Assembly: GCA_963920765.1 (NCBI GenBank)
Contig: OY987244.1
Location: 33,673,678 to 33,737,677, forward strand
Length of the DNA: 64,000 bases
Origin: Ulota crispa
Taxonomy: Eukaryota; Streptophyta; Bryopsida; Orthotrichales; Orthotrichaceae
Direction of reading: 5' to 3'
Under the pieces are notes generated by a model. It ran no database searches. It saw only the letters and a list, made by a program, of their open reading frames with translations, and was not told where the DNA came from. How positions within the stretch are numbered: position 1 is the stretch's first letter; each line of letters starts with the position of its first letter. This document shows, in pieces, positions 630-62,300 of the stretch. Position numbers and translations under genes: made by a program.

Positions 630-3600
630 CTAGTCATGACAGTGAAGGAAGTGAGTAATATGCAAGTGCCAGGAAACTCTAATGACGTCGTGACATGTCT
701 TTACGTCTTGCAATATTTCATTATGATAGAAATGCCTACCTGTCATTGTTGGAATTTTTAAAAAGCATGGAACCTACATCGGGCTAGAAATTATGAGATG
801 AAAGCACGCATAGGAGTAATGGTGCTCTTATTTTTCTCAAGAAACATAAATAAGGAAAAGAATGCTTACAAGGACACTTTTTGGTAGATGTTGATTGCAA
901 CCATATTTGCAATGATGGGTTTCAACAACCTCAGCAGCTTCAATTTTCAATCCATGACATTATTCACATGTGCATGGATATTGTCGAATACCTTCACGAG
1001 CTACTATAGCCTTTTCCTCATGGTAAGCCTAGGAAAGACGTTGTGGTGTCATAGTGAATGGATTTCAATACCTCAGTTCTTGTCATTAATAGAAAAACAG
1101 GGTCATTGCCAGAGGAAATTCTTGCACACTGTAAGCCAATGATTCTCAGAACTACTAAAGAGAACAACATTTGAGAATCAATGAATGATCCAAGCGGTTA
1201 CTATTGCGTTACTGAAGTGGATACTATTCTTTGCATAGACTTCATAACATGGAAATTGTTCAAATCCACTTTCCTCTATTACTTTTGAGCGAGCAGGCCG
1301 TGTGCATATGAACGAGTTGTCCCTCATATAACTGATATTGCATTGTAGGGTGATTGCAAGAATGACTTGTACTACATTCTGTCCCCCTCACCTTATGTGG
1401 CTTGTTTTTTGCTTGTCACTTTTGCAAAAGAAGTCATATTGACTTGTCTTTTTAGAGAAACGTGAACATGCAAGTTATTGACATTTACTGATTATTTTGT
1501 TTTTTTTTAAAATCATCCACTAATTTTAAATGGATTGCAATAATATGTCTACCTTGGTTGTTTTGTGGGTTTGTAGTACAATTTTGGGTCCAAAAAAGCT
1601 TTTCTAGGGTTATAAATCAAGGATGTTGTTTATGGAGCATGCTTACATGCATTTATAGAAGGGTTTTGCAAAATTATAAATTCCATGGCATGTACATTGT
1701 CTCAAATTGGGCATGCTATCTCCCTTCATTGGCAAAATACGAAGAAATTCCTTAGCAAAGCAATTGTACCATGTGAATGTGTTTAATGGGTTCTCAAATG
1801 GCCAGTTTTTATTTTATTTTCTCAAATTATTTTACTATTTTCTAAAAAGCAAGAAAGAAATTAGCTTTTTAAAATGATTTTGTTTTGCGCATAACTTTTA
1901 GAATAAAATTTTTCTAGGTCTGAATTCTCACAAGTATGCTATTTTGAGTGCTTTACAAATTGTCCATATTTTATTTTATTTAAAAAAATTATTCCAAAAA
2001 CTCAGTAGTACTATTAGTACTACCAGTATCAAGGGTGTTTGAGACAGAACAGAGAGGTCATCCTTGCAACTACCTTGTACATGGAGTAGGAGTTTGCATG
2101 ACCACATGTATGATTGCTGATATGATAAATTGACTTATACAAAACACCTTACACTACCAGACAAATAAGTGAGAACAAGTGAAATTTTACAAAAATTAAC
2201 TCAAATAATTTTGAAATATTCTTAGTGTACATTGAAAAAAATGATGCGTTTTTTATCAAGAATGTTTCAATAGATCATAGCACAATGCTTGTTCAAAGCG
2301 GGCATCAGTGTTCACGGCTAGAGAAATTGATATCAACATCTGCCATGTACAAAAGTGATGTAATTTTTGACGTTTCATAATTCTTGATATTACAATCCCC
2401 TAAACTTCATGCTCATTTCTAGCTTACACTGTTACCAATATAACAAAACAGATATGTTTAATACAGTAATACCTAAGGAGGCAGAGGAAAATCTGTTTGC
2501 ATGAAATGGTTATACCATTCAGTGCTAGGGAGGTTAACCTTAACATACCATTGTTGCAAGGAATATAGTGAATGTCAAGTTGTAGAGGCTAATTTTGAAT
2601 TGCTCACCAATACATGGAAGTAGATGTGGCCGTCCTGTTTTGTCTTATTCTTGCTCTTGCAATTGATGGACAAATTCAAACTAGATTGAATCCAACATTA
2701 TAGGAATGACGGAATCATTAGTCCTACCAAAAGTTCAGCATTCATGCAAATTATAAGCAACCAACAAACTAAGTAATGCTGGAATCCATGTACTAAAGGT
2801 CACTCATTTATGATAATGAGAAATAAGAGGTGCGACACCTCGGAACAAACCTACATTGCAGTCATGAAATTGGGTAAACCCTAAAAATGAAATGGTATTG
2901 CAGGATCCATAATAGGTTGTATATAGTTCTCAGCAATTCATAGACCAATGAGTGTTGTGTCAACAACAGATTTGTAGAGGGACTTACTTTCACTTCCAAT
3001 ACCGTGAGTCATTCTTGCCGATTCTTGATTTTTTTTATTGAATGTCCTGCCGAGTGGATAGTACTGACGCAGTTGAGGGCTTGGTCATAGTAATTTGAGA
3101 ACTAGAGGGTGACCTATAGCAATCGTCTTGATGATTAAATACACAAAGACGCCTAAACCCTAAATTACAACAATGGAAATACTTGCACTGGTAAGAAGAC
3201 AAGTATACGGACAATCCTAATGAAACTTTGACATTGGGAAATATATGGAAATGCTAACAAGGTCTCTGAAAAAACAAACTTCAAATGACATGAGGTGGCG
3301 AGAAAGGAAAATTTAACCGTTGTGGACCTGAAGTGAATGAAGACAACAAAGTATTGTCAAACCTGTGAAAGATTTGAAATTTGCAGTATAATTTGACAAA
3401 GTGGAAGCAAACTCCACCACTTCATGACAACAAACAAGATGTAAGCAATAAAATAGAAATATCCCGAGCATTGGGGCGCTTAAAATATATCCTGAGCATT
3501 GGGGTGCTTAAAAAATATCCTGAGCATTGGGGAGCTTACCAAGCGCCTTTTGAAAGTGACAATAAGAAACAACAAGTTTGTTAATCCAGGTCTAGTGCAT

Positions 3601-10256: not shown

Positions 10257-10720
10257 GATAGTTTATTGAAAAACATTGGTGTTGAATTTTTGAGATTTGA
10301 TTCCATGGATATGTAGGAAAAATTCATATGCACATCTTCCATGCTAAAAAAAAACAACCTTAAGTAACAAAAAGTTTATCAACAAAAGATTCAATGAAAC
10401 ATGTGATAGGCCTAAATTTTGTAAAACATCTATTTTTCTATGAAAATCAAAATTTGTTGTTTGACTCAAATATTGTAACTTAGTTTGTATCTTTTAATAC
10501 AATATTTTGTTTACTTGATGAAAAGCAAGATTTTCATAGAAAAATATATGTTTTACAAAATTTAGGCCTATCACATGTTTTATTGAATCTTTTGTTGATA
10601 AAGCTTTTGTTACTTAAGGGAGGTCTTTTTTAGCATGGAAGATGTGCGTATGAAAATTTCCTACATATCCATGGAATCAAATCTCAAAAATTCAACACCG
10701 ATGTTTTTCAATAAACTATC
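10257..10720. repeat. 464-bp foldback with 190-bp arms
   Basis: Bases 10257-10446 and 10531-10720 are inverted copies in constant register (paired positions sum to 20977), with scattered mismatches and an 84-base AT-rich loop. Arm pairs include GGTGTTGAA/TTCAACACC and TCTATGAAAA/TTTTCATAGA. It begins only three bases after the CACTA end. Its arm sequence, and the flank TGTAAAACCAT...GAGTTTTGGTTTTT just outside, resemble the large palindrome at 58.0-59.3 kb, so the two look like one family. Confidence 0.85.
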
Positions 10721-30900: not shown

Positions 30901-31085
30901 ATGAATTTAAATGCATTGCTAGAATAGTCATTGATCCAATTCTATAATTTGAAGCTTTTATCTAATTTTTAAAATCTATAACAAAACTAAGATAGTGCGT
31001 TTAGGTTGCTTTATTGTGGAAAGTTACCTCATGAGTCATTGTTTGGCCACTTTGATGCACATGTGACTCTCTAAATACTAGAATT

Positions 31086-31216
31086 CACTACAAGGAAATG
31101 ACACTTTTTTGACTTAGCACTATGAGTGCCGTGAGTCATTTTGTGTCCAAACTGACTCCAAAATGACTCATGGTAGTCATAGTGCTAAGTCAAAAAAGCA
31201 TCTTTTTCTTGTAGTG
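31086..31216. mobile_element. CACTA-type MITE with 3-bp target duplication
   Basis: The left end CACTACAAGGAAATGACAC and the right end TTTTTCTTGTAGTG form inverted termini. ATT directly precedes (31083-31085) and follows (31217-31219) the 131-bp element, the 3-bp duplication expected of CACTA transposons. The interior is itself a hairpin (GACTTAGCACTATGA against its inverse). Confidence 0.85.
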
Positions 31217-32036
31217 ATTTCACATGATTTATGGCCTAGACGATGCTAACTTTTTTTAGCATTGTTATTGTTGTTGCCAAGTCCTTATCCTTGTTAAAAT
31301 GATTTGTTGCACTAATCATTATCAAAAAAATTATTGTAGTATGATTGAGTATTTATATAGTGGTACAATGTCAAGAAATTAGTGTAGGCAACCTAAATGC
31401 ACTATTTAGTGTAGATTATAATGCTACAAAAAATAGCTACATGTGGTTTACCCTATTATCACTTCTCTATCTTCAAAAATTCATATATTTTAGGGCTTAG
31501 TTTCAAATCTCAATTTACAAGTATGGTAAGAAAAGTTGTAGAGTCCTTTACTAGTAGTACAACTTTTGTTCCATTTGACCAAAATTTGCAAAAGATATAG
31601 AGTATTAGCTATGAATACCTTACTTAGATATACAATTTATTGCCCCAACGCCTTAGTTGTAGCAATGTCAATTGCAAACCAAATACATTTGAAATTTGTC
31701 AATTAAGTTAGCACTTATAGATGACCACAAAGGTTAAGGAAAGGAAGAAGATGTTAAAAGATGAAAATGACAAAATATGATCATGTATGGCAATGAAACC
31801 TCTCAGAAAGTGATACGGAAGTGATAATAGGGCTCTTTCAAATTTGAGCAGAACCTTGACCTTGCCTCATTGAAACCTTGCTAACTAAGGGCCGCCTTGA
31901 GGCCGGGCCAATTCATTGTGTCAAAGGCCAAGAATCCTCACTTGTGATTGGACAGAAAGCTGAAATCAACCTCAACCCCCTTACACTTAGAGGCATAGCC
32001 AATTTGGTGGAATGAATTTTTTATCTAACGAAGACA

Positions 32037-32195
32037 AATTAGAAGAACAATGGCAATAAACAACTAAGTAATTTAGTTGTTGTGGAGTTATTGTGACCAT
32101 ATGTAGTCGTTACATAGTTGTTATGTGGTCACATATGGTCACAATAACTCCACAACAACTAAATTAATTAGTTGTTTATTAGCGTTTTTCTTGTA
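32037..32195. mobile_element. Palindromic MITE, about 160 bp
   Basis: Core arms 32059-32103 and 32132-32176 are inverted copies in constant register (sums of 64235), nearly perfect, with loop 32104-32131. The right outer edge TTTTTCTTGTAG resembles a CACTA end; the left edge is more eroded. Confidence 0.7.
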
Positions 32196-32954: not shown

Positions 32955-33381
32955 TTATCTACATAAAACTTGATTTCTGAAATAGGCAAAAATATTTTAA
33001 AAGCTTTGTGATTGATAAAAAAGAAAACAAATGAAGGCAATTGGTATAAAATACCTTAATAAAGTAAACAAAAAACTTAAGGCTTTGTTTCAAACTTCAT
33101 GTTTAGGGTTCATGCACATTTTGGCAATGTCCCATTGTGTCCAACTTGATTTTATTGGTGTCTGTCATCATGTCATTGTTTCAAATTAAAGAATAATAAT
33201 TAATAGCTAATTTATTAAATTGATCAATTAATTAAAAAAATTGTGACCTATTCTCACTTTACATTGCAACAAGAAGCCACTATTTCCAAGGCTAGCTTTT
33301 TGAAAACAAGCCATGACCCATAAGAAATTTTTGTCACAACTTCTCACCTCTAGTGTAAAGATGACTTAAGTTCAGGTCTTT

Positions 33382-33438
33382 GATATTGCCACCCCCCTCT
33401 TTTACATCATTATTAAAATTTTAGTGGTTTTTGGGGGC

Positions 33439-33475
<37 letters not shown>

Positions 33476-33728
33476 ATGTATCAAACCAAGTGATTTTTGG
33501 TTGGTGTTTTACAAAATGAGAAATTACAATAAGAAATTTTGATAAGAAAAGGCAACACTCTTTTATCTTTTCTTATCAAAAAATTTGATTGTATTTTATC
33601 ATTTTGAAAGAAACCAACAAAAAAGCACTTGACTTGATAAAAAAAAAAAAAAAAAAAAAATTTATAGAATTGTCCCCAAAAATCACTAAAAATTGAACAA
33701 TGATATAAAAGAGGTGGGTGGCAGTATC
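33382..33728. repeat. Foldback element containing two same-strand poly-A tracts
   Basis: Outer arms 33382-33442 and 33668-33728 are inverted copies in register (sum 67110), for example GATATTGCCACCCCCCTCTT against its inverse. Inner arms around 33480-33545 and 33565-33630 pair as well, loop near 33555. Between them are A27 (33443-33469) and A22 (33639-33660), both on the plus strand, so they oppose each other unpaired. Confidence 0.75.
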
Positions 33729-33769
33729 AAAAAAGGGGGTGGCAGTATGATCAAGACCCTTACTTTATT

Positions 33770-42000: not shown

Positions 42001-45000
42001 GTTGTTGGTAATTTGAGCTAGTATTTCAAACATATGGTACCATAAATCGGATTGAAACAAAAAATTGTTTGTTTCAATAAACTCAAAATATCAAGATATG
42101 TTAGTGAACCAAATAGAAAATATGATACAAATAGGCATATTACAATGAAACTTTTATATTACCAGCTTTGGTGGAAAATCAAAAATACATTGTTCTTCTT
42201 CTTCTGAACTTGGTTGTTCTGCTGTAAAGTCAAAAAATGGATCCTTTGGTATAAGCTGCAACACATGAAAACATGTTAGTTTACGGATTTTTTGGCCTCG
42301 TTGTAGCCTTTGATTCTTTAAAGACTGTGACTAATGAAGAAGTTGAAAATCCTCTAAACTAAATCCAAAAACATTATACATGATCAAAACAGAATATAAA
42401 GGTGTTAGAATACATTACAACTTCTGAAAAGATCTGTTTGCAAAACTTTTCCCCGGCCTTCTTTTTCATTTCATCTTCTTCAGCTTTATGAACTTCTTGT
42501 GAGAGTTCCTAACACCGCAAATTACAATGTTAATAGATTTGGACCATCTTATTCAATTGTAGGTACTTTCTTTTTCTAATTTATTGTTCATACTAAAAAA
42601 AAAACATGAAGCAAATTTTGAATTGAATAACCAGTTGTTAAGAGAGTTCTAAAAATTTCAATATTATATCAGGCCAAATTTGTGTTTGTTCATTCACATT
42701 CATTTCCATGTATGTATAAATACATGTGTATATTCACATATATACATATGTATTTATACATGTATAAAAACACTTGAACAAATTAGTTTTTATTCTAATC
42801 AACTTTTAGCACATAACAACTCAATTTTTTTGGTAACCCACCTCAACTTTTCCTATCATTCCAGAAAACATATCCGTTAGTTCTTTTTCTTCATGATTTG
42901 TCAAATCTTGAAAATATTCATTAGTATGTATTGAACTTTTGGGAGAAGGAGACATTGTTTTAATTGACCATCGTTTTGCCTCATTTTCTTTTTGCTGCAA
43001 ATTATGACATTGTAAAATTAAAACCCAATGTATCATTAATAAAAAGATCGTTTGATGAAAATTGCCCAGTATTATTAAGAAAGATATAATTAAATAAAAT
43101 TTGGAGGTTAGAATACATTTATAAAATAGTAGGCACATGTTATAATGGTATAAACAACTATAATTGGTGTTAAAACAAGGGAATTGATATGTGCACACCA
43201 GGGTTGATATATGCACATTCCTTGGGAGGTAAATTATAGATTTCTACCATCAAAAAGTTGAATTTGAGAATTTTGAATTCAGATTTGGATTTAAAGACCA
43301 TGATTTAGTCTAGAAACACAAAAAATGTTGCAATTGAACAATACCCAATGAAAAAGCTTAGCTAGGGAGAAAAGCGTTATTTTTAATTTTGTTTGTAAAA
43401 AAAATAAAAGTTTTCATTGGGTGTTGTTCAATTATAACCTTTTTTGTGATTCTAAACAAAATCATGGTCTGTAAGTCCAAATCTAAATTCAAAATTCTCA
43501 AATTCAACTTTTTGATGGTAGAAATCTATAATTCACCCCACGGAGGTGTGCATATATCAATCCCCAGTGTGCACATATCAATCCCCTAAAACAATTTGTA
43601 TAATTATAACTGAAATTTAGTCTTACTTGACAAATAAAAAGATATCGCAATCCTTCTTCAGCATGAAAAAAAAGAAATCGAATGGTTGGAAGTGGATGAA
43701 ATGGTGGGTCAACTTGTAATAAATCTGTGGGCTTGTGCATGCATTGGAAAGGTCCCCCTTTACTTTCTACAAAAAGTTTCCAGTCTTGGTCAATATCAAA
43801 TTGCAATAGATTTTGTTGTCGACTAAGTTCAATAGCTTTTGCACTTAATTCACGCAGTTTTGCACGAATTATACGTCTTGCATCTTGAATTTGAATGTTT
43901 TGTTGCTTTTGAGCCTTTTGAACATCTTTTTCTGCCAATTTCTACAAACATTTGTATTTAATATATAATTTTTTTACATGGTAGAAGTTTTTTATAATTT
44001 GATGAATTGCAAGCATGCTAGTTCAATAGTGTTAAATCATCTTATTTTTTTAATACAATATGCATTATTAAGCCTTAGACAAAGTCACCTCTTGTTTGCA
44101 TTGTGCAATGAGTTTATCTATTTCAATTTCAAAATCAGATCTTGTATCTGGACCAACATCACAGCCTGGAAGGTCAATGTTTTCCAATAGCCAATCTGCA
44201 TAGGCTTCTAATATTTTTTCTATGTTTTTACTAGTCTCTTCTGAAATCAATGGAGTTTCTAAAATTTGACGATAAACAAATATTGAATTTTCCTCTTCTG
44301 GATCAAGTTTTGGTACTATTGGGTTTATAATGTGTGGTAATGTGGGCAATATAAATTCAAGTTGAAGCCAACAACAATCTGTTTGAAATTTTACTTTGTT
44401 GCTTAGTTGTTTGGCTTCAAATCTTCTTGCAAATTGTGAAGTTCTTCTTGTAAGTAGCCAAGGCGTAATAGGAAATGACGTTTGCATTTTTTCTTCATCT
44501 TTCAAAAGTTCATTTAAAGTCTTTTTACTTTCATTTTCAGTTGTAACAAATGTATGCACATTACAATCTTCTTCAAAGACAAGACATTTATCATCTTTTT
44601 TGGTACAATGTTTATTATATAATTTTGATGTTTCATACATTTGATACATTTCTTCAGATAAGATTTCATAACCATATCCTCCATCATGAACCACAAATAA
44701 GCGAGGAAATGGACCTAATACAATTGGCTCAAGAAGTTTAGAAGGTTCTGGTGTTGGCATTGGAGTAGGTGTTGGTTTCCAAGTGCCTAGAGGTTCTAAG
44801 TCAAATCCATCAAATGGATCAAACAGCTTTCTTGGTTGCCCTTCTTTAGCCATCATCTTGAGCTTTGTAGACTCCTTTTCCATAGTTGTGTTAGAATTTC
44901 CTTCCAAAGGCTCTTCTAAACCACAATCTTTAGAACCAACTTTAAGAGGTTTTTCAAAATCTGTTGCAAGTTTGTTATGTTTATTTCTGAATTTTTTGAG

Positions 45001-48000
45001 ATTAAATTAAATTTTTAACATTCTTGTTTGAAATCTTAAAATTTTGTAATATCTCACAATTTTTGGAATTTTTGTTAAATGTTAAAATACTATTTCAATA
45101 GCAAACCTATTTAATACCTTTTGTATTCTGTTGTAGTTTATTAACATTATTCACATCTTTTGAATCATGGTTATTCAACACATCAGCAATTGCTTTATTT
45201 TCAACTTCCGCAATAGTTGGCTCTACAATTTTATCTGTCAATTCTTCAGATCTTTTTGCTATTTGGTTAAATAATTCACTGTTGATAATGGACTCATAGT
45301 CACATCCTCTTCCAAATACTTTAAATCCAGTGCCCATATTGTTTGTAAATGTCAAGCTACCTTCCAACTAAAGGATTTTTTTGTTCAAACTCTTATTTCT
45401 ATATTATTTTCACAAAATGCAAAGGAGCATATATCCTAATAATATAATGTCATAACTCACCAACTAGTATAAACTTCACTTAAAGCATACATAAATAAAT
45501 AAATGTTTACCACATCAAAAATATAAACACCATGGGTATTTATAGGGGGGAGAATATCAATTTCATTATTTGAGTCTTCAATTTGCACCAAATCTTCTTG
45601 CTGAGGTGAATTTTCAATTAGTGGTGCATTTTCCTTAATATTTATAGGGGGGAGAATTTTGCGTTTATTATTTGAGTTTTCAATTTGCACACAATCTTCT
45701 TTTTGAGCTAAATTTTCAATTATTGTTGCATCTTCTTGCTTTCTTGACGTAGAAAAAGGATCATATGTCACACTGCTTCCAATAGAATACAAAGTTGCTC
45801 CTCCTGGCATTGTAAAAGTTAATTGTGATTTCTCTTTAGACCAAGTTGCAACATATTGACCATCTTCAGTTGCAAACTCAACACATGTGCCACATCCAAC
45901 CTGCTCAGGTGTAGAAAAAACAATCAATGTATATATTCATTGGTATCTAGGATTATACTCAAAGATTCAAGTGTTGCAGACTAGTTACTTTGCCTTCAAA
46001 ACAGTATAATTGCATGAAAATAGCCTCTTAGATCAAATAATATTTAATTCAAAAGAAAATATTAGTTTAAATTTTGATGATAAAAGAACAAACTACTCAG
46101 ATAAAAAGTTAAAAGTGCTAATATGGTTTTGATTACCTTGCCATGAACTTTAGCAAAGCCGTCTTTACGCACGTGCCAAACAGTTGAGAAATGTGGTTTT
46201 GGTGACTCCGGTTCATTAAGATCTGAAACATCTTCCGGAGGTGGCGTACTATACCACTCTTGACGGCATCCAGGCGGTTGGGGAGGCCACACCCAATCAA
46301 GAATTTCTCTAGGAGCTTCACCATATCCTTCTGGTGCCCAAGTTTGAGAATGTTTCTTTTGTGCTTTTGCAAAATCGCTAAGCTTCACACCCATCTTGTT
46401 TGGAAGTTCAGAAAGTAAGCCACTAAGTGGTTGCTTCTTCTTGTAACTTCTGTCAACATTTGTTTTCTTAGAATTGTCAACTTTTTGCACAATCTTAGGC
46501 TTTACACCAACTTCATCTTTTGGTTGAATGTCTTGAGTTGAATCTTTGTTGACATTAGCTTTGTTATCAATTCCAACAATAGCGGTGGGATTCTTTGAGA
46601 CGTCCATTACCAAAGAATTGTTTTGCAATACAAGATTGTCCTCACCTTCTAGGAGGGGCTCTTTCTCTTGCTCTAGAGGGCATGAAGTAGGCCAATCGTA
46701 GAGGTATTCCGGAGGAACAACAACCTCAGCAGGGATAGGAGGAAAATACTCCCAAACTTCACTATAAATGTGAGTGCCATCAGCATGTTGCACTAGACAA
46801 GAGCATTGCTCTTCACAAGTGACCATAACTACTAAGTCTTCCCGAGTTATAATTTCATCTCCAGTGTCTGGATCATAAAATTGAACTACTTTAAGATCAG
46901 GTAGTTGTGTCAAAATGGGCTTGGCTGGTTCTTCTTCTTCTACTAAAGCATCTGAAAGTTATCAACATTTAAAAGTATTTGAGATCACATCCTATAATGT
47001 GTAATCTTAACTATCTCAAAAGCTTCAATTTGCACAATTATATTGAAGTTTTTTTCTTATTGTAATTTGTTCATTTATACAGAAAACTACTATATACGTG
47101 AATTTCATAAGTACAATTTAGATCATCACGTCCAACTTTCTACAATATACATGAATTTCAAAAATACACTTTTGGGCATCATGTCAAAAAAATTGGCTTT
47201 TTTTTTAGTGTAGTAGGATTTGCATTAACTCTATACCTAAACTGTTTGTTGCTTCCACACGTGCAGGTTTATTTTCATCTGATGGAGGATCTTGCTGCAA
47301 AAAAGGGAGATTTACTTTTGGAATGATGGAGAAAATGGTCTTTTTCTAGTTTGTTAGAATTAAATCTTTATGTCAAATTGATAATAATGATTGTGAGCTT
47401 TAAATGAAAACAAGTTTCAGATGAAGTAAGTAATCAAGTCACCTTTATTAGTGCATTTACTAAGACCATGTTCTAATTGATATATGTATTAGATGATAAA
47501 CTCAAATTCTCTATGTGAAAAAAAATTGCAAGAAATTAAATGCTTACTTGTACTACTAAAAACCCACTATTATTGGCAGTTATCCAACATGAGCTGCCTT
47601 CAAGGTCACTTCGCCAGTCACTTACATTTCCTTGCCGACACAAGACCTACTAGTTTTTCAAAAATGTGTGTAACAAGTTTAGTATCAACATAAAAAAACA
47701 TAAATTGAATGCTTTATATATGGAAATATATTCTAAAACAACAAAGCAAATAAATTCTACCTTGTTAATGAATATCAATATCATTTGTTAAGATGTTGAA
47801 CTTGATATGTAACTATATATGTGTGCATATACATATAACAATCCAAATGTAGGATTTTAAATTAAAAATGGGTTTGTGTAGTAAAAATGGTTTTGAATTT
47901 TAAAATGACCTCTTGCAAAAGATACTAACTTTAGACATGTAGAATCATTTTTATCCAAATTCAATAGTTATAATGCTTATTTCAAACAAATATAAAAGAT

Positions 48001-53265: not shown

Positions 53266-53344
<79 letters not shown>

Positions 53345-56300
53345 TCTTGAAGTGATTCAAACCAAATTTTGATTAATAATTGTGTTTATGTTTATATCAC
53401 CTAAAATGAAACTCAAATATCTAAATGTTTTATTCATAACAAAAATATGATAAAAATGTTTGAATTTTGAATTAGTTAATAGACAAACAAATCATGATTC
53501 ACCAGCTTTCTGTATCTTTTAACTGCAGCAAGATTAACAGGCACAAGTGAGAACAATGGACCATTTGGGTCTTCTAGTATTTCCAAAATCACAGGTGGAC
53601 CATAAATATCATCCAACTCTTTATACCGAGGATATGTTTCTCCAGATGTCTGTTTTCCGCCACTAGCAAACATTGCTAAAGCTTCTAGACATCTTTGCCT
53701 TTTTTCTTTTGTTAAAAATGGGGTAATGGGCATATATGCTCGATTTTTACCTTTAAAAATTTGCAACATCAAATATTAGGCTTTTTATTAAAATGTAAAC
53801 AAAGACCGTGGTTTCACTTGAATGGATTAACAATTTGTGTGGACATGTATCAAATTTGGTTTCCAATGTAAATGGAGTTCAAACCTGGAGATGCAAGCAA
53901 TGACAACATACGCTTTTCAACTTCAATGGCATCTATAGAATCCCAGAATTCTAAAATTTGTTGCTTTTGTTTTATTGCAAGTCTTTCCACTCTATTGAAT
54001 TCATGAACAATTGATAAGTGTTCTTCAGCATCTTGAGTTTTAGTAGATGAACCCTCTGATAATTTTGAGATTTGACTCATATCATCGTCTATTTCAACCC
54101 TTTCATTCATAGCAAGTAAGATGTTACATTCTTTTGGTATTGGTTCTCCAATTTTTGAAACTTGTTGTTCTACTATTACGGAACCTACTTTTGATGACTT
54201 TTTATGTTCTTGCATCTTCATACTTGATTCTTTTCTTTCCAAATTGTTTGATATTGATGACTTTTTTTGACCAATTGTTTCAGCATATGCTTCAAGTGCA
54301 ATAGCTGTGGCTTTTGCAGCTTCCTTATTTGCTTCAAATGCAGCAAGATTTGCTGCTTGTAAAGCTCTTTGAGCAGCTTCGCTTGATACTTGCCTTTCTA
54401 TTCTTTGCATTAAGTCAAAGAGAACTTCAGATGGTTTGCACATGCATGAAAGTCCATGACCTAGTTTTTGAAAAGTATTTTGCAAACTTTTAGCCACATA
54501 CTTGTTTGCTTTAGCCACCTTTAAAGCTTCCAAATCTTCACTTGGGCATTCATAAAGGGATACTTGTCCAACTATACAATGAACAATAATTGGAATACTT
54601 AATAAATTTTTGGGCACTTCATCTAGAAGCTCCTTATAGTACATCATGTCTACATCCTAGGCAACAAACATGGTTGTAACTCACGAATAAACAAATGACT
54701 AAATAAGCCAACTATGTTGTCAAAGTGATCATTTACAAAAAAATGAAATTGTAAAATGAAAATCACCTTTGACGGTTTGGCCTCTGGAATTTCACATTTT
54801 TCTGATATATATGCCTCTAATGCAGCAAATGCTTCCATTTGTTGTTTTAAGACAATTGTAGAATCAACCACCGCTTTAGCAACTTGTTCATATGGTAGGC
54901 CACTAGTTGGTTGACTTGGTGTTTTAGGTGGAGGAGCTTTACTTGTTGTTTTTGTTTCTAAATCCTATAAGAAAGGGTTCTTTTGAATGCTTGATTTAAA
55001 AAGAAGTGTTGTACAATCTTACATTAAATTTAGAAAGTAAATATATATAATATTTGAATGGCTATTAATTGTATATAGAATGTAACTCAAAGTTCAAAAG
55101 TAAAATTTAGAGTAGATTTGAGATTAATCAAAATCTAACTTGCTCGAATGCAAAAAAATCGAGATTTGACAAACTTTAATCCATTGCATATTCCAATTGT
55201 GGTATCATGCATTTACCACTTTTATCTCCCTAGTATTACAGTTGTAAAACTCTAAACCTCTCTTGATGCTCTTGCAAATAAACAAAGAGTCATCATGTTC
55301 AGATGTACATTTGGTGTGATGTCAAGTTGTGCTTCAAGTGGTGGTGGATCTTCATATAAGACATTAATTATGGGAAGCTTTCTTGAAGGGTGGTCAAGTT
55401 TAGAAGCCTTTGTCAAGGCAAGCAACTCTTGTATCAATAGTGGAAGAGGTGGTGCCGATTCACTAGAAACATTGTTAATTTTTGTTGTTGCATCACTTTT
55501 TGTTAGTGGCGCAGTTTTTGTTGCTGGCGGAGTTTTTATTGCAGATTGATTTGATTCAACCTCAGTGTTTGGTAGACGAAGCAAAGGTGGCGGCTTTTTT
55601 GCTACATTGAAAATAGCTTGAAAAATATTTTTGACCGTGACTTGCTGGGAAAGAGCCTCAGCAGTATTTCCAAACCCCACGCACCAGTAAATACGTGTGG
55701 TTGTCATAGGATCATTTTTCTCAAAGTCTCCTTTTACATCCCAATATTGAGCTACTTTCACCTATAGAAAACAAAACACATTTGATAAAACATTGGATTC
55801 TCCCTTTTATAACTTAATTGCCACAATCAAATTTATTTTTTCTCCTTAAAGGACCATTGTTCCCTTACAATACAAATGGGATTCAGGCATGTACCAATGC
55901 TTATACTAGTATGTGTGATTTTTTGAATATTTTATAAAGAGAGTGACTAGGCGGACACCCCCTAGTTGCTTTGCGGACACCCCCCATAGCTGAACCTATT
56001 AAATTTGAGATTGTTATTATGCTAAAATATGAAATAAAATCAAAGCAATACTTTGGCATACATTTGCATTTACAAGTATTGCAAACATACAACAAATCTG
56101 CCTCATTTGCTACACAGTCAAGAGTCAAACCAGTGAATGAAGGGAGCAATTGGTTTAACTCCTAACCGTGTCACAAACAAGATAAATCTGTTGTGTGTTT
56201 GCAACACTTATAGAACACACAACACTTGTAGACGTAGATGTATGCTAAAATATTGCTTTGATTTTATTTCATATTTCAACGTAATGATAATCTTAAATTT

Positions 56301-59300
56301 TATAGATTTGGCTATGGGGGTGTCCACGTAACAATTGGGGGGTGTCCACCTAATCGCTCCCTTTACAAAAGTTGGAAAATTCAAAGACCTATGTGGGCAT
56401 TTAATTTTTTTTGTTTGAGGGTTTAAGTAGTTATGCAAGAATTTATCAAGAATAGGGGAGGAGGGGTAGTTTGAAGAGGGCCTCTTTTTTGTAAAAGGGC
56501 ATTGACTCCAAAGAGGGTTAGCCCTTATAGGCACAAATGTGTGGCCATTTGGGCAAATGGGAGTGGAGTAGAAGGGCCCATCTTGGGGACTCCCAACCCT
56601 CCATTCCTTCTACCCCTTATAAAATTTGGTGCTTTAATTTTTTGAGCAATTTGAGTATTTTGTTTATTTATTGAAAAAACTCCAAGTTGTAGTATTTTAG
56701 GATTCCTTGGTTTTAAACATTTGGATTAGCATAATTCAGATTTTGAAATGTACATAATGCCTTCAAATTTGCCTTGTGTATTTGCAAATTTTATGACCTT
56801 CCAACATTGCAAGATTTTATGCAATATGTTGTACTCCTCCAATTCATATGAAAACCTCCCCACACATACCTAACTTGGTCTTCTACATGGAAGAATTAAA
56901 ACTCAACTTTGTGTAGAGCAATATTAATACTATAGGAGTGGTCAAAGACTTTTGAAAGTTTCAAACAAGAAGGGAAAATTTTGATTTTTCTTTTACTTTA
57001 GATGTCAAAATCTCACTCATCTCCATTGGAAATAAGTTGATGTTTTTTTCCACAAGTACCTCTAGTAATTTAGGAAAAAACCCTATGGTTGGATTTCTGG
57101 GAATTTTTTTTTCCTACTTTCCTACTCATTCTCCTAAAAGTGGCAATTTTCAATGACTTTAACATAAGAAAAAAAAAGCTTGGGTCCATTGAGGGTTAAT
57201 ACATGCAAACTAAGGAAAATGAGCCGATTTGATAACTGTTTTCATTTATTGAGCCATATCATGTTCATGTGAAAATAAAACCCAACATTGCAAATGTGAA
57301 AGTTTTAGCAAACGGTATATAGCACAAATGTAAAAAATGGAACTCAAAAGGAATTGTTGCGTGCAAGTTTATAAGTTTTAAAGTGGACCACAAAAATGCT
57401 CAATCATGTACCCACTTTGGAAACCATTCAGTTGTTATTATTTTTGCATGTTGTTTCAATTTAAGGCCCTTGTGTCATTGTTTTGCACATTGATACATAT
57501 CATTTAAAAATGATCTCCATCAAAAATATAAAAGACACATAATATCCTATCTTAATTTGAATTGCATTTGAAGTTACTTTATTCCATACAGGAATAAGAC
57601 TTCATCAACAATCAATTGAATGCAATGAGAATCAATGTTGCAATCTCTATATGATATTTAAAAATATGTATGCAACTTTTAGTAAAGTGTGGATAATTGA
57701 AAACTTCAGAATAATATTCCATTTTTTTATTTTATTAAAGATACATGCAAAACATTTAGAGATTTCTCATACTTTCTTTATGTATTGGAAGGTCTTTTGA
57801 TGTTTTGCCAAAACATCTATAAATCTTTGGATGTTATGCATGGTCCAAAACTACATGAGAAATCTAATAAGTTCAAAATTTAATGTAAAATGTAGAAAAT
57901 CTTAAATCACACAAACAATCCTCATTTGATAAATGTGGTGCATATGTCTGAGTGAATTTTTTTTGAACTAATAGACAATTGAAAACTTAAAAATGAGCTT
58001 CCTATTGCATTTACATTAAGGAAAATATAAAAAATAAGCCTAACAAAATGGTCATATTTCAAAAATAGGTTTGACATTTAAAATACATCAAAAGTAGGCC
58101 TCACCAAACATCAGAAGTAGGTCTTGCAACTATGGTGGCTCAAACATTGCACATGTTTATTTATTTTCAAATCAAATTGGTTTGTGGTAGTTTTGCATAT
58201 AGTGACCAAGACCACAACATCAATTGCAATGTGCCGTGCCCTTGCCATTGTTTTTGCTCACCATGTTTTACAAATTCAAAAATTTTGGCATTTTAGAACA
58301 TAGAATCAACATTTTAGTATTGTGATCACTGATCTTCAATTTTTACGCAATCTCAATCAAGCATACAAGTTTTGGAGTTTAAAAAAACCAAACCTCTATT
58401 CTTGTTGATTTGTTTTACATGATATTTATGGTTTTACATGGTAATTGATTAAAAATTGGTAATACATTTTTGAAATTTGATTGATGGATGCATAGGAAAC
58501 ATCCATACACCCATTTTTTCTTTTAACAAGTATCTCCAACAAGTTTCAAAATTCTTCCTATGTAGCTTTTAATATTGGGTAACCACAACCAAATTGAAAA
58601 AATAGATAATTCTTTATGATAAGTAGATATTTCTTTTTGACTCAATAAATATGATAAGGTTTGAATCTTTGAGCATAATCATATGGTTGTTTTGCCAAAA
58701 GCTAATTGAAAAAATAAAAATATCTATTTTTTCAGTTTGATTGTGGTTACCCAATATTAAAAGCTACATAGGAAGAATTTTGAAACTTGTTGGAGATACT
58801 TGTTAAAAGAAAAAATGGGTGTATGGATGTTTCCTATGCATCCATCAATCAAATTTCAAAAATGTATTACCAATTTTTAATCAATTACCATGTAAAACCA
58901 TAAATATCATGTAAAACAAATCAACAAGAATAGAGTTTTGGTTTTTTTAAACTCCAAAACTTGTATGCTTGATTGAGATTGCGTAAAAATTGAAGATCAG
59001 TGATCACAATACTAAAATGTTGATTCTATGTTCTAAAATGCCAAAATTTTTGAATTTGTAAAACATGGTGAGCAAAAACAATGGCAAGGGCACGGCACAT
59101 TGCAATTGATGTTGTGGTCTTGGTCACTATATGCAAAACTACCACAAACCAATTTGATTTGAAAATAAATAAACATGTGCAATGTTTTGGCCACCATAGT
59201 TGCAAGACCTACTTCTGATGTTTGGTGAGGCCTACTTTTGATGTATTTTAAATGTCAAACCTATTTTTGAAATATGACCATTTTGTTAGGCCTATTTTTT

Positions 59301-62300
59301 ATATTTTCTTTTTGTATTATGGTATATTAAATGTCACTTGGAGCAACATTAACCCCTACATGCGCATTTTCTCTATAAGGGACAAATTTAATTTTGTACA
59401 TGCTTATTCTATTTGGATTTTTTTTAGTTTTTTTGATTTTTTTTCCAAAGATGGAGTTTTCAAGGGCAAAATGGGGATACAACTTTTATATTGGAATTGG
59501 ATTTATGGTTCAAATGTTATGAGTGTAGTATGTGTATTTTTTGAACTAGGGGCAAGTTAGGCATGCCATTTTTCATCAACTTCTCTTAAGGGCAACCAAT
59601 GAAGGCATGACCCTTCATTGGAGTACTTCCAAAGCAATAGTGTACTAGATAAACACATTATTGTAATTGTACATATAGTAGCTTTTGAAATGCAATAGCT
59701 GTTAAAGATTTGGTTTTTCTTTCAACTTTTTGTGGTTGTCAATAAATGTAAAGTCTTTGAATCCTTTGTTTGAATTTCAATATTTAAAAACTAGCCCTTA
59801 GAAATTTGAATCACAAAAACCTCAATATAGTGTGAATTTCAAGCACATGTTTGCAATGCATGGCCATGTAGAGTGGATTCCATGTCTCCATTGGCCTTGG
59901 AAGTTTGTAGAGACATGCCTAACATGATTTGGATCATGTTAGACAAATCTCACCCACATCCATAGTGCAAAAAATGTTCACCACATGTGGTTAAAGGGGT
60001 CTGAAAATTATGGACAAAGATTAAAAAAAACTTATTATACTAACTTCAAATGGTTATATCTCTCAACATGTATGGTCAAACCTCATGAAACTTTCACCAT
60101 GGTTGCTTGCAGAAGTTTAATGTATGATCCTATAGGCGGATATGTAGGAAAAAAGAAAAAAATTGTTCTTTAGATCAAATGTCTAAAAATGGCAGCTTTG
60201 AGTGTTTCTTGAGAAAAAGTGGACTTGGGTGTTTAGGGCTTAAAACATATATAGATTGCATTTTCAGATAAAAACCCTTATAATGCAATGATATTTGAAT
60301 GAAAAAAGTCTATATTAGGTAACTTGATAACTCCTTGTAACTTAATGTTGAGGTAATATGGAAGTTTCTATGGAATAACTTTAAGGGTCATTCAAGTTGA
60401 TATTTTTTATATTTCTTTTCTTTCAAACATACATGACAAATTGGTAAAGATGATTTTACAATGGTACACATGAGTGTGTCAAAAATGACAATATGGTGGT
60501 GATTTGAAAAAAACATGCAAATAATTTTTTGTTATATGGTATCAAAAAATGACTCCGTGATTGCCAATTGGTATTTAAAATAATCCACTTGAAATCCAAT
60601 TACTTGCAAGTTACAAGTACTACTATTATATTAGTTATTCACAAATTTTCAACATGCGCTATGCTAAAACACTTACATTTTGATCATGAATTTTATTTTA
60701 CACATAAAGATGATGTACCTCATTGAATAAATTTGTTGAACAAACATACATACAATTGTTATCCATTGACATAAGACAATCATCTTTGACCAAATGAATA
60801 CCAAAAACAATATTGTCTCTTAATATTAGAATTATAACTAAATCAAAAGCTTACTTTTGTCTCGTAGCATTGAAGAAGAGCTCTAAGCTCTGTTGTTTTG
60901 TCTTCAAGAGCTTTTTTTTCATCCATTGAACCACTTGCAGGTGTAGGAGGTGGAGCACCTTTTGCACCTTTTGTTGCTAAAATAACATGCATTTATAATA
61001 CAACATAAATGAATATTCAAGAAAATAAATTGTAGTCAACGGTACCTTGAATTAAAGAGTATTTTATAGCCCACATCATCAACAATAGGTAAATGAGTGT
61101 TTAGTTTTTTTTTTTACTAGTTTGAATTTTAAATTTTGCAACTCAATAGCCAATGACTTTTACATGCATATTTGTATTTTGAATTCAGAGCATTGCAGCT
61201 AAATAATCAAAACTTTTATAAAAAAGTTATGTTAACAAATTTGCAATTTGTATTCCAACAAAATTGAAATGGTAGTGACCTGGTGCAGGAGGAGGTTTTC
61301 CTTTTGCAGGTGCTATTGCTATTGCAGTTACCTCTACCATATTAACATTTTGCTCGGCCAATTCCTTTGCTTCCCTTTCTTTGTCTTCAATCTCTTTTAA
61401 CCTTAACAAAGATGCTTCAAATTCTTGCTTTGCGTCTGCTTCTTTCACCAATGCTTCCTATTACATCATGAAAAGCCTACTAGTGTGCATTGCTTTTGGT
61501 AATTCTCCAAAAAGTTGGCAAACAATATACTTTCATTGGTTGTAGAAAAAGGGTTTATATCTTCAACACAAAATCACCTTTACGTTTTTTTTGCATATTT
61601 CAGCCCCATCCATCCTACGTTGAGATTCCTTCCTATGTTCATCATCTTTGTCTAAAAGAGATCGTGCTACATTATAAGTCCAAATAAGAAACAAACTTTT
61701 GTTAGTACATGAGAGCTTAGAGACAATGGCAAGGCAAACAAAATCATGACAATATGCAACACCTTTTTTTTTATTGTTTTTACAAATTTTACCATGGATT
61801 GTGAAAGTTAAAAAAATTAGGCTAATAATCTCAAGCATGTTGTGAAAATTTATATCTTAAAGTCCAATATCACCTTCCAAAACCTCACTTAGGAGTTGTG
61901 GAGTGAGCCAATTAGGATCTCTAGTTTCCTTGAAACAATAAAAGAGAAAAGAAAATAAGTAGACTATTAAAATCCTAAAACACAAATAGGCTTTGATCAA
62001 GAAGGAAAAAGAAGATGAGGTTACTAACAACTAGCAAATGAGAATACGTCATGTTGTGTTAATTGTGAAAAAACCTAAGTGATATCAATTATAACTTGTG
62101 ATTATATAACAAAATGTGATTATATAATTAAAAAATAGTAGCTAAATAATGGAGGTTTGGTAGTTTTTGATTTTAGAAAACCTATTTATAATGTGCAATG
62201 CTAGAATTTTTCAAAAATAATAGCAACATATATTTAATTTGGTGGGTTTAAAAACATTCATTATCAACATAAAACTAGTCTTATTGTATACACCTTTGAG

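Follow-up and report, generated by a model that had tools for sequence, protein, structure and literature searches.

A near-perfect 1.29-kb palindrome in the moss Ulota crispa is probably an old nested transposon composite with later homogenised arms

Introduction

Among the systems described so far, the foldback Mutator-like elements (MULEs), the inverted-repeat small RNA loci of Physcomitrella and the Mu killer locus of maize come closest to the element studied here, a near-perfect 1.29-kb palindrome in a 64,000-nucleotide stretch of the Ulota crispa genome (GCA_963920765.1, contig OY987244.1, positions 33,673,678 to 33,737,677 of the forward strand). This whole stretch is called the window below, and positions are counted from its first base. 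We argue that the palindrome is probably a nested composite of non-autonomous DNA transposons, which was inserted long ago and whose arms were later homogenised in place.

The foldback MULEs treated in PMC4486113 (MuTAnT of Medicago and, named in the same paper, FARE1 of Arabidopsis and Jittery of maize) have, in the passages describing them, modular long terminal inverted repeats and 9-nt target duplications; MuTAnT can form a hairpin, non-autonomous copies exist beside a transposase-bearing relative, and some copies are intronic. Our locus resembles them in these traits. It differs from the elements of those passages in that the inner part of the hairpin belongs to another, GTAC-ended family, attached at a fixed joint in the MULE terminal repeat, and in that the arms look as if they had been homogenised after insertion. 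In Physcomitrella, 132,656 inverted repeats make up 6.2% of the genome with a median arm identity of 79%, and some of them give 21-nt RNAs, according to the portion of PMC2600652 that covers them. The likeness lies in a genome very rich in inverted repeats, whereas the identity of the window palindrome is far above that median and the locus is known here from sequence alone. Mu killer is an inverted duplication of a transposon that silences its own family, MuDR; in the relevant part of PMC3440606 it contains sequence of the transposase gene, and genetic tests demonstrate the silencing of MuDR. As there, inverted MULE terminal sequence lies here beside a gene read as transcribed, and a long hairpin RNA is possible in principle. 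No coding frame is evident in the window piece, by contrast, and its best relatives mostly match it at 78-85%. Neither precedent is evidence for the window locus.

As for the arms, inverted repeats are known to become homogenised through template switching, one arm templating the other so that differences vanish, and for long inverted repeats such homogenisation is likewise well documented, as set out in the section of PMC8604942 concerned. The events analysed in that section had short arms of 7-16 bp, whereas in the window nearly 600 nt have to be covered. Foldbacks or miniature inverted-repeat transposable elements (MITEs) targeting GTAC, and MITE palindromes of mosses, gave no match among the titles listed from one open-access library, which does not imply their absence from print.

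Results

The palindrome is confirmed as a real feature, with the following arms.

58018-58611, + strand: left arm, 594 nt, pairing without gaps with the right arm
58718-59311, - strand: right arm, 594 nt, pairing without gaps with the left arm

The computed alignment of the arms, as the original prediction had proposed, contained eight mismatches over 594 nt (arm positions 3, 20, 123, 124, 376, 572, 577 and 592) and 0 gaps, that is, 98.65% identity or a difference of 1.35%, with 106 nt between the arms. The predicted gap-free register and scarcity of mismatches were thus borne out, while the arms of 588 nt and the loop of 112 nt given at that time had to be corrected. In blastn the palindrome was the top inverted repeat of the window with a bit score of 2030 (E = 0; runner-up 538), and therefore it is not due to chance. 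By base counts the arms have a G+C content of 30% against 36.7% for the window. No stop-to-stop frame of at least 100 amino acids is contained within the palindrome, in line with the predicted lack of coding capacity, and one of 102 amino acids (59252-59560) overlaps its right end.

The palindrome has a two-part build. The outer ~213 nt of each arm and the inner 868 bp belong to separate transposon families, and the parts are arranged in mirror symmetry as follows.

58010-58018, + strand: TTTACATTA, target-site duplication on the left of the outer MULE-type element, the 9-mer directly outside the terminus, agreeing at 7/9 with the right copy
58019-58230, + strand: outer module left, a MULE-type terminal inverted repeat (family B), from blastn against the own genome, ends with flanks, and the related element L070
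58231-58234, + strand: left junction, GTGC, at the place of the GTAC/GTAY (or a near variant) of most B terminal repeats seen and of the GTAC terminus of the foldback family
58235-58611, + strand: left arm of the inner GTAC-ended foldback, 82-85% identical to the best genomic copies and starting at their terminus
58612-58717, no strand: loop of 106 nt, kept in the foldback family at 80-85%
58718-59094, - strand: right arm of the inner foldback element, from the arm alignment and genome blastn
59095-59098, - strand: right junction, the mirror of the left in the sequence (GCAC on the + strand)
59099-59310, - strand: outer module right, a MULE-type terminal inverted repeat, 98% identical to the left module
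59311-59319, + strand: right target-site duplication, TTTGTATTA, from the 9-mer comparison and the duplications of the family

The boundary emerged from searches of the own genome, in which stretches carrying family copies were given L-numbers. With the whole arm as query, 40 of 2733 candidates were scored and yielded 48 matches; apart from the window itself, these start at arm positions 205-258, bar two short fragments at 318 and 366, and none covers the outer part. The outer 213 nt searched alone (40 scored of 352 candidates) led to a different set of places at 78-85% identity, and the loop was searched likewise (40 scored places, window included, of 744 candidates). The boundary at arm position 214 coincides with the terminus of the inner family; the stand-alone copies of the closest subfamily mostly read GTACCRCGCCCTTG and the window reads GTGCCGTGCCCTTG. 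Each of the two parts is dispersed in the genome. A second copy of the whole 1.29-kb composite was not present among the 40 scored of 2733 candidates, none of which spans the junction, and so dispersal of the foldback as one unit was not seen in this sample. Over whole modules the best other matches among the scored candidates reach 83-85%, and hence no visible recent burst accounts for the identity of the arms.

The outer module is, judged from the 9-bp duplications and from L070, MULE-derived. Complete B copies (L046, L047, L048 and L061) measure ~745-770 bp, with terminal repeats of ~210-240 nt around a non-palindromic interior of ~290-330 nt, for which 40 of 44 candidates were scored, with 44 matches. 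The family has long terminal inverted repeats ending in GGGAAAATAT, the termini of the window copy being AGG/AAG; a GGG start is a habit of MULEs. Mutator-like elements make target-site duplications of 8-11 bp, usually 9. We compared the flanking 9-mers of the seven elements with both B ends located in the retrieved stretches, L060 being kept apart. Their own pairs agreed at 7, 4, 9, 8, 7 and 7 positions, and at 7 in the window, giving a mean of 7.0/9 versus 3.45/9 for 42 cross pairs (best 7). The related element in L070 (599-5507) is a 4.9-kb MULE with terminal repeats of ~500 nt that are 88% alike. Its ends are 72-73% identical to those of family B over 90 nt and part of the B interior matches it at 73%; inside the B-type ends an open reading frame (1831-2532, - strand) carries the MULE transposase domain PF10551 (E 2.3e-11), and the target duplication, TTGAAAAAA, is perfect at 9/9.

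The inner module is a member of a foldback family whose dispersed copies measure ~880 bp and have a loop of ~106 nt, and from the GTAC onward it is 82-85% identical to the best stand-alone copies of one subfamily. The size of the palindrome had been called untypical for a MITE, which loses its distinctiveness since the inner family is regularly ~880 bp long. GTAC stands at both ends in 14/21 foldback copies and is missing at one or both ends in 7/21, by a strict count that leaves out L030 with its GTAC ~11 bases beyond the end; in the window copy the mirrored junctions read GTGC/GCAC instead. On the far side of GTAC, the left and right flanks of one copy agree little more than expected by chance (own versus cross pairs 0.50/0.34 for 2 bases, 0.34/0.28 for 5 and 0.31/0.29 for 8). 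The foldback of L031 is nested in a repeat that is uninterrupted in L035, and a comparison by eye of this one readable case shows GTAC single before the insertion and double after it; as GTAC is palindromic, the doubled unit is GTAC or the TA within it. Elsewhere in the family, L037 (1291-2217) and L038 (1839-2648) contain different insertions at the same TTAA of the foldback arm, with the TTAA doubled and CCC...GGG-type ends, which suggests piggyBac-like elements. The loop of the L035 foldback holds an insert of ~730 nt to which window 1348-2073 is 86% identical, and this is another dispersed repeat.

The age of the insertion and the age of the arms appear to disagree, which is an unusual feature of the locus. 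The flanking 9-mers of the window agree at 7/9, for which the probability among random 9-mers of flanking sequence is 0.0044 (7/9 or better), and two or more differences in nine bases have a probability of 0.006 at the divergence of the arms themselves and of 0.40-0.56 at a divergence of 15-20%. The mismatches cluster at the arm ends (p 0.00046 for the distance to the nearest end), five of the eight lying within 23 nt of an arm end (p 0.000135), as would be expected of a conversion tract that covered the middle of the arm. Furthermore, among 22 elements the window ranked first in arm identity and in the margin by which this exceeds its best other match within those 22 (0.99 versus 0.885), in a comparison that skips gaps and leaves end gaps free and so runs above the blastn values. 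The lead in the margin is narrow, as L045 follows with 0.921 versus 0.821, its nearest relatives not having been sought.

A second and older composite family, B2 (L053, L054, L055, L057 and L060), has B terminal repeats followed by another foldback subfamily at the same point. It is not uniformly symmetrical, as L057 has one B end only in the retrieved stretch, and the arms of L060 are 94% identical over 494 nt. B2 composites were considered as a simple source of the inner module and rejected, as the B2 likeness begins only at about arm position 313 and amounts to 69-74%.

The contig is 34 Mb long, with the window close to its end, and belongs to a genome of 275 Mb and 157 contigs. On both sides of the palindrome, open stretches on the minus strand are read as exons of one host gene.

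55252-55761, - strand: putative host-gene exon downstream of the palindrome, read from an open stretch; no Pfam match
60846-60992, - strand: second putative exon of this gene, upstream of the palindrome, likewise read from an open stretch

The palindrome had been placed inside an intron of SPAG17/PF6. The intron is likely in view of these flanking stretches, short of proof because the name of the gene is our presumption from SPAG17-like motifs, which no database search confirmed: Pfam returned 0 families for the six host-gene stretches tried, and sequence searches of the PDB with six stretches gave no axonemal match. A weak match of window 45457-45936 (- strand) to the photosystem protein PsaD (E 2.3e-5, with no stretch passing alone) was taken as chance.

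At least six further palindromes, 141-464 bp long, lie in the window, besides a simple TA-rich one (53266-53343). Aligned with themselves over the whole palindrome, those at 10257-10720 (86%), 33379-33731, 55930-56370, 32040-32195 and 31081-31221 fall in the range of 69-86%, and 10639-10779 matches part of the inner foldback arm at ~74%. That at 43178-43587 is another foldback with MULE-like ends (AGGGAATTGATATG...) and an 8-bp direct repeat, TAAAACAA, at its flanks. Given these neighbours a palindrome as such is not unusual here; the identity and length of the arms stand out. The region carries several foldbacks, since a further member of the GTAC family (L045 1115-1995, C3:33748114-33748994) lies ~10 kb past the end of the window.

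Discussion

The locus is mostly ordinary in kind, made of nested MULE and foldback elements, while its symmetrical composite build is unusual. In the account that we consider probable, an old MULE-type element with family B ends and a 9-bp duplication holds the ~868-bp GTAC-ended foldback between its two ~213-nt terminal repeats, and we infer that well after insertion one arm was copied onto the other in place. The likely route would be a replication fork or broken end that folds back at the hairpin, one arm templating the other out to the B terminal repeat. Such copying would have created or preserved the symmetry of the composite, leaving the residual difference between the arms. As the template-switch events analysed elsewhere were short-armed, a tract of ~600 nt would call for a break-induced or gene-conversion version of the process. 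The choice offered by the original prediction, recent formation or active homogenisation, fits this account, the best reading being that of old elements whose arms were recently homogenised.

How the two modules were joined is suggested by their boundary. Many B terminal repeats have GTAC or GTAY exactly where the foldback of the window begins, and this makes a GTAC-directed insertion of the foldback into a B terminal repeat plausible. A plain nested insertion into one repeat, without symmetrisation, was rejected, because the remaining repeat and the B interior should then flank one side; both sides of the foldback continue into the same mirrored repeat, and the B interior (~290 nt) is gone. 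We also considered an ancestral empty hairpin, with the outer module mirrored around GTAC and the foldback inserted at its centre, and found no support for it: the constructed 224-nt query gave 86 matches from 40 scored of 106 candidates, the longest covering 123 of the 224 bases.

Several observations weigh against an old insertion with later copying in place. The duplication test consists of nine bases only, so that 7/9 could be chance in spite of its low probability, at least one cross pair having reached 7 as well; within the family the 9-mers of L047 agree in register at 4/9 only, and L060 has no 9-bp duplication (3/9). The cut of 23 nt was picked after the data had been viewed. Elsewhere in the genome, 115 nt of the outer module are matched at 90%. 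In 11/22 elements the two arms resemble one another more than they resemble any further copy in the sample (0.984 between the arms of L067), so that the gap between arms and relatives in the window is a matter of degree, and an active lineage with lost donors would look partly similar. Neither an empty B hairpin, among the candidates scored for it, nor an intermediate whose foldback occupies just one of the terminal repeats came to light. Finally, in a tree of outer arms (23 arms of L046-L061 plus the window, from blastn pieces with a query span of at least 150 nt) the window groups weakly with B2 (support 61), and the composite may hence have formed long ago and elsewhere than at the site in the window.

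The most serious competitor, to which we give an appreciable though clearly smaller chance, is the recent transposition of a composite foldback MULE, whose donors would be lost or segregating in other individuals and whose arms would be alike through youth. The high identity of the arms would follow directly, a related composite family, B2, exists in several copies, and L066/L067 with foldback arms at 0.97-0.98 and a sibling at 0.955 provide a comparable case. Against it, no sibling exceeded 85% over a whole module among the scored candidates, the 9-bp duplication is conserved at only 7/9, and the mismatches are clustered at the ends instead of being evenly spread. Given the degenerate duplication, the best matches of 83-85% over whole modules and the lack of a second copy in the sample, the young foldback transposon of the original prediction stands as to its class, with foldback and MULE parts, and fits poorly as a young unit. 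An assembly artefact, a fold-back read or a collapsed haplotype, comes to mind because long near-perfect palindromes are a known failure mode of assembly; it is highly improbable here, as the palindrome ends at transposon ends and contains eight mismatches, its non-palindromic loop is common to other copies, and its unrelated flanks lie between open stretches read as one gene.

The palindrome might alternatively be kept by selection as a hairpin RNA locus, a source of small interfering RNAs (siRNAs), a proto-microRNA or a locus of the Mu killer type, whose ~590-bp double-stranded RNA (dsRNA) would silence transposons or regulate the host gene. In computed folding the minus strand, presumably the sense strand of the host gene, forms one long hairpin of ~590 bp with -989.5 kcal/mol, and parts of the literature cited above offer precedents in the Physcomitrella inverted repeats feeding 21-nt loci (PMC2600652) and the inverted duplication silencing MuDR in maize (PMC3440606). 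Against this, a known small RNA was sought in Rfam with 0 matches in the window, similar elements are many in the genome, and template switching homogenises arms without selection. Moreover, the best would-be targets are mostly 78-85% identical, so that few perfect 21-mers are expected. For the close match to an active transposase gene or terminal repeat that a silencer of the Mu killer type would need, the values seen are 83-85% for the best relatives over whole modules and 72-73% against L070 over the terminal 90 nt. We regard selection for such a function as improbable. If the palindrome is transcribed with the host gene, the resulting hairpin would most likely be spliced out and at most be fed to Dicer. 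A putative dsRNA or siRNA role is possible, and for the sperm-lineage small RNAs of the original prediction the present data speak neither way.

A bolder extension of arm copying in place, which we offer as speculation and would not expect to hold, is that hairpin-templated copying makes new and longer foldbacks from transposon nests, with self-templated synthesis lending symmetry to a foldback that has inserted at the GTAC of a MULE terminal repeat, the window being a fresh product and B2 an older one that has multiplied; the recreated near-perfect hairpin could then double as a source of dsRNA against both families.

The palindrome is thus mainly a record of transposons and DNA repair. Its interest lies in the two clocks found at one locus, of which the target-site duplication dates the insertion and the arms date the last homogenisation. 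If these clocks disagree generally, arm identity would be unfit for dating foldbacks and elements with long terminal inverted repeats. Copying of one arm onto the other would, moreover, offer a simple route from nested elements to new foldback transposons.

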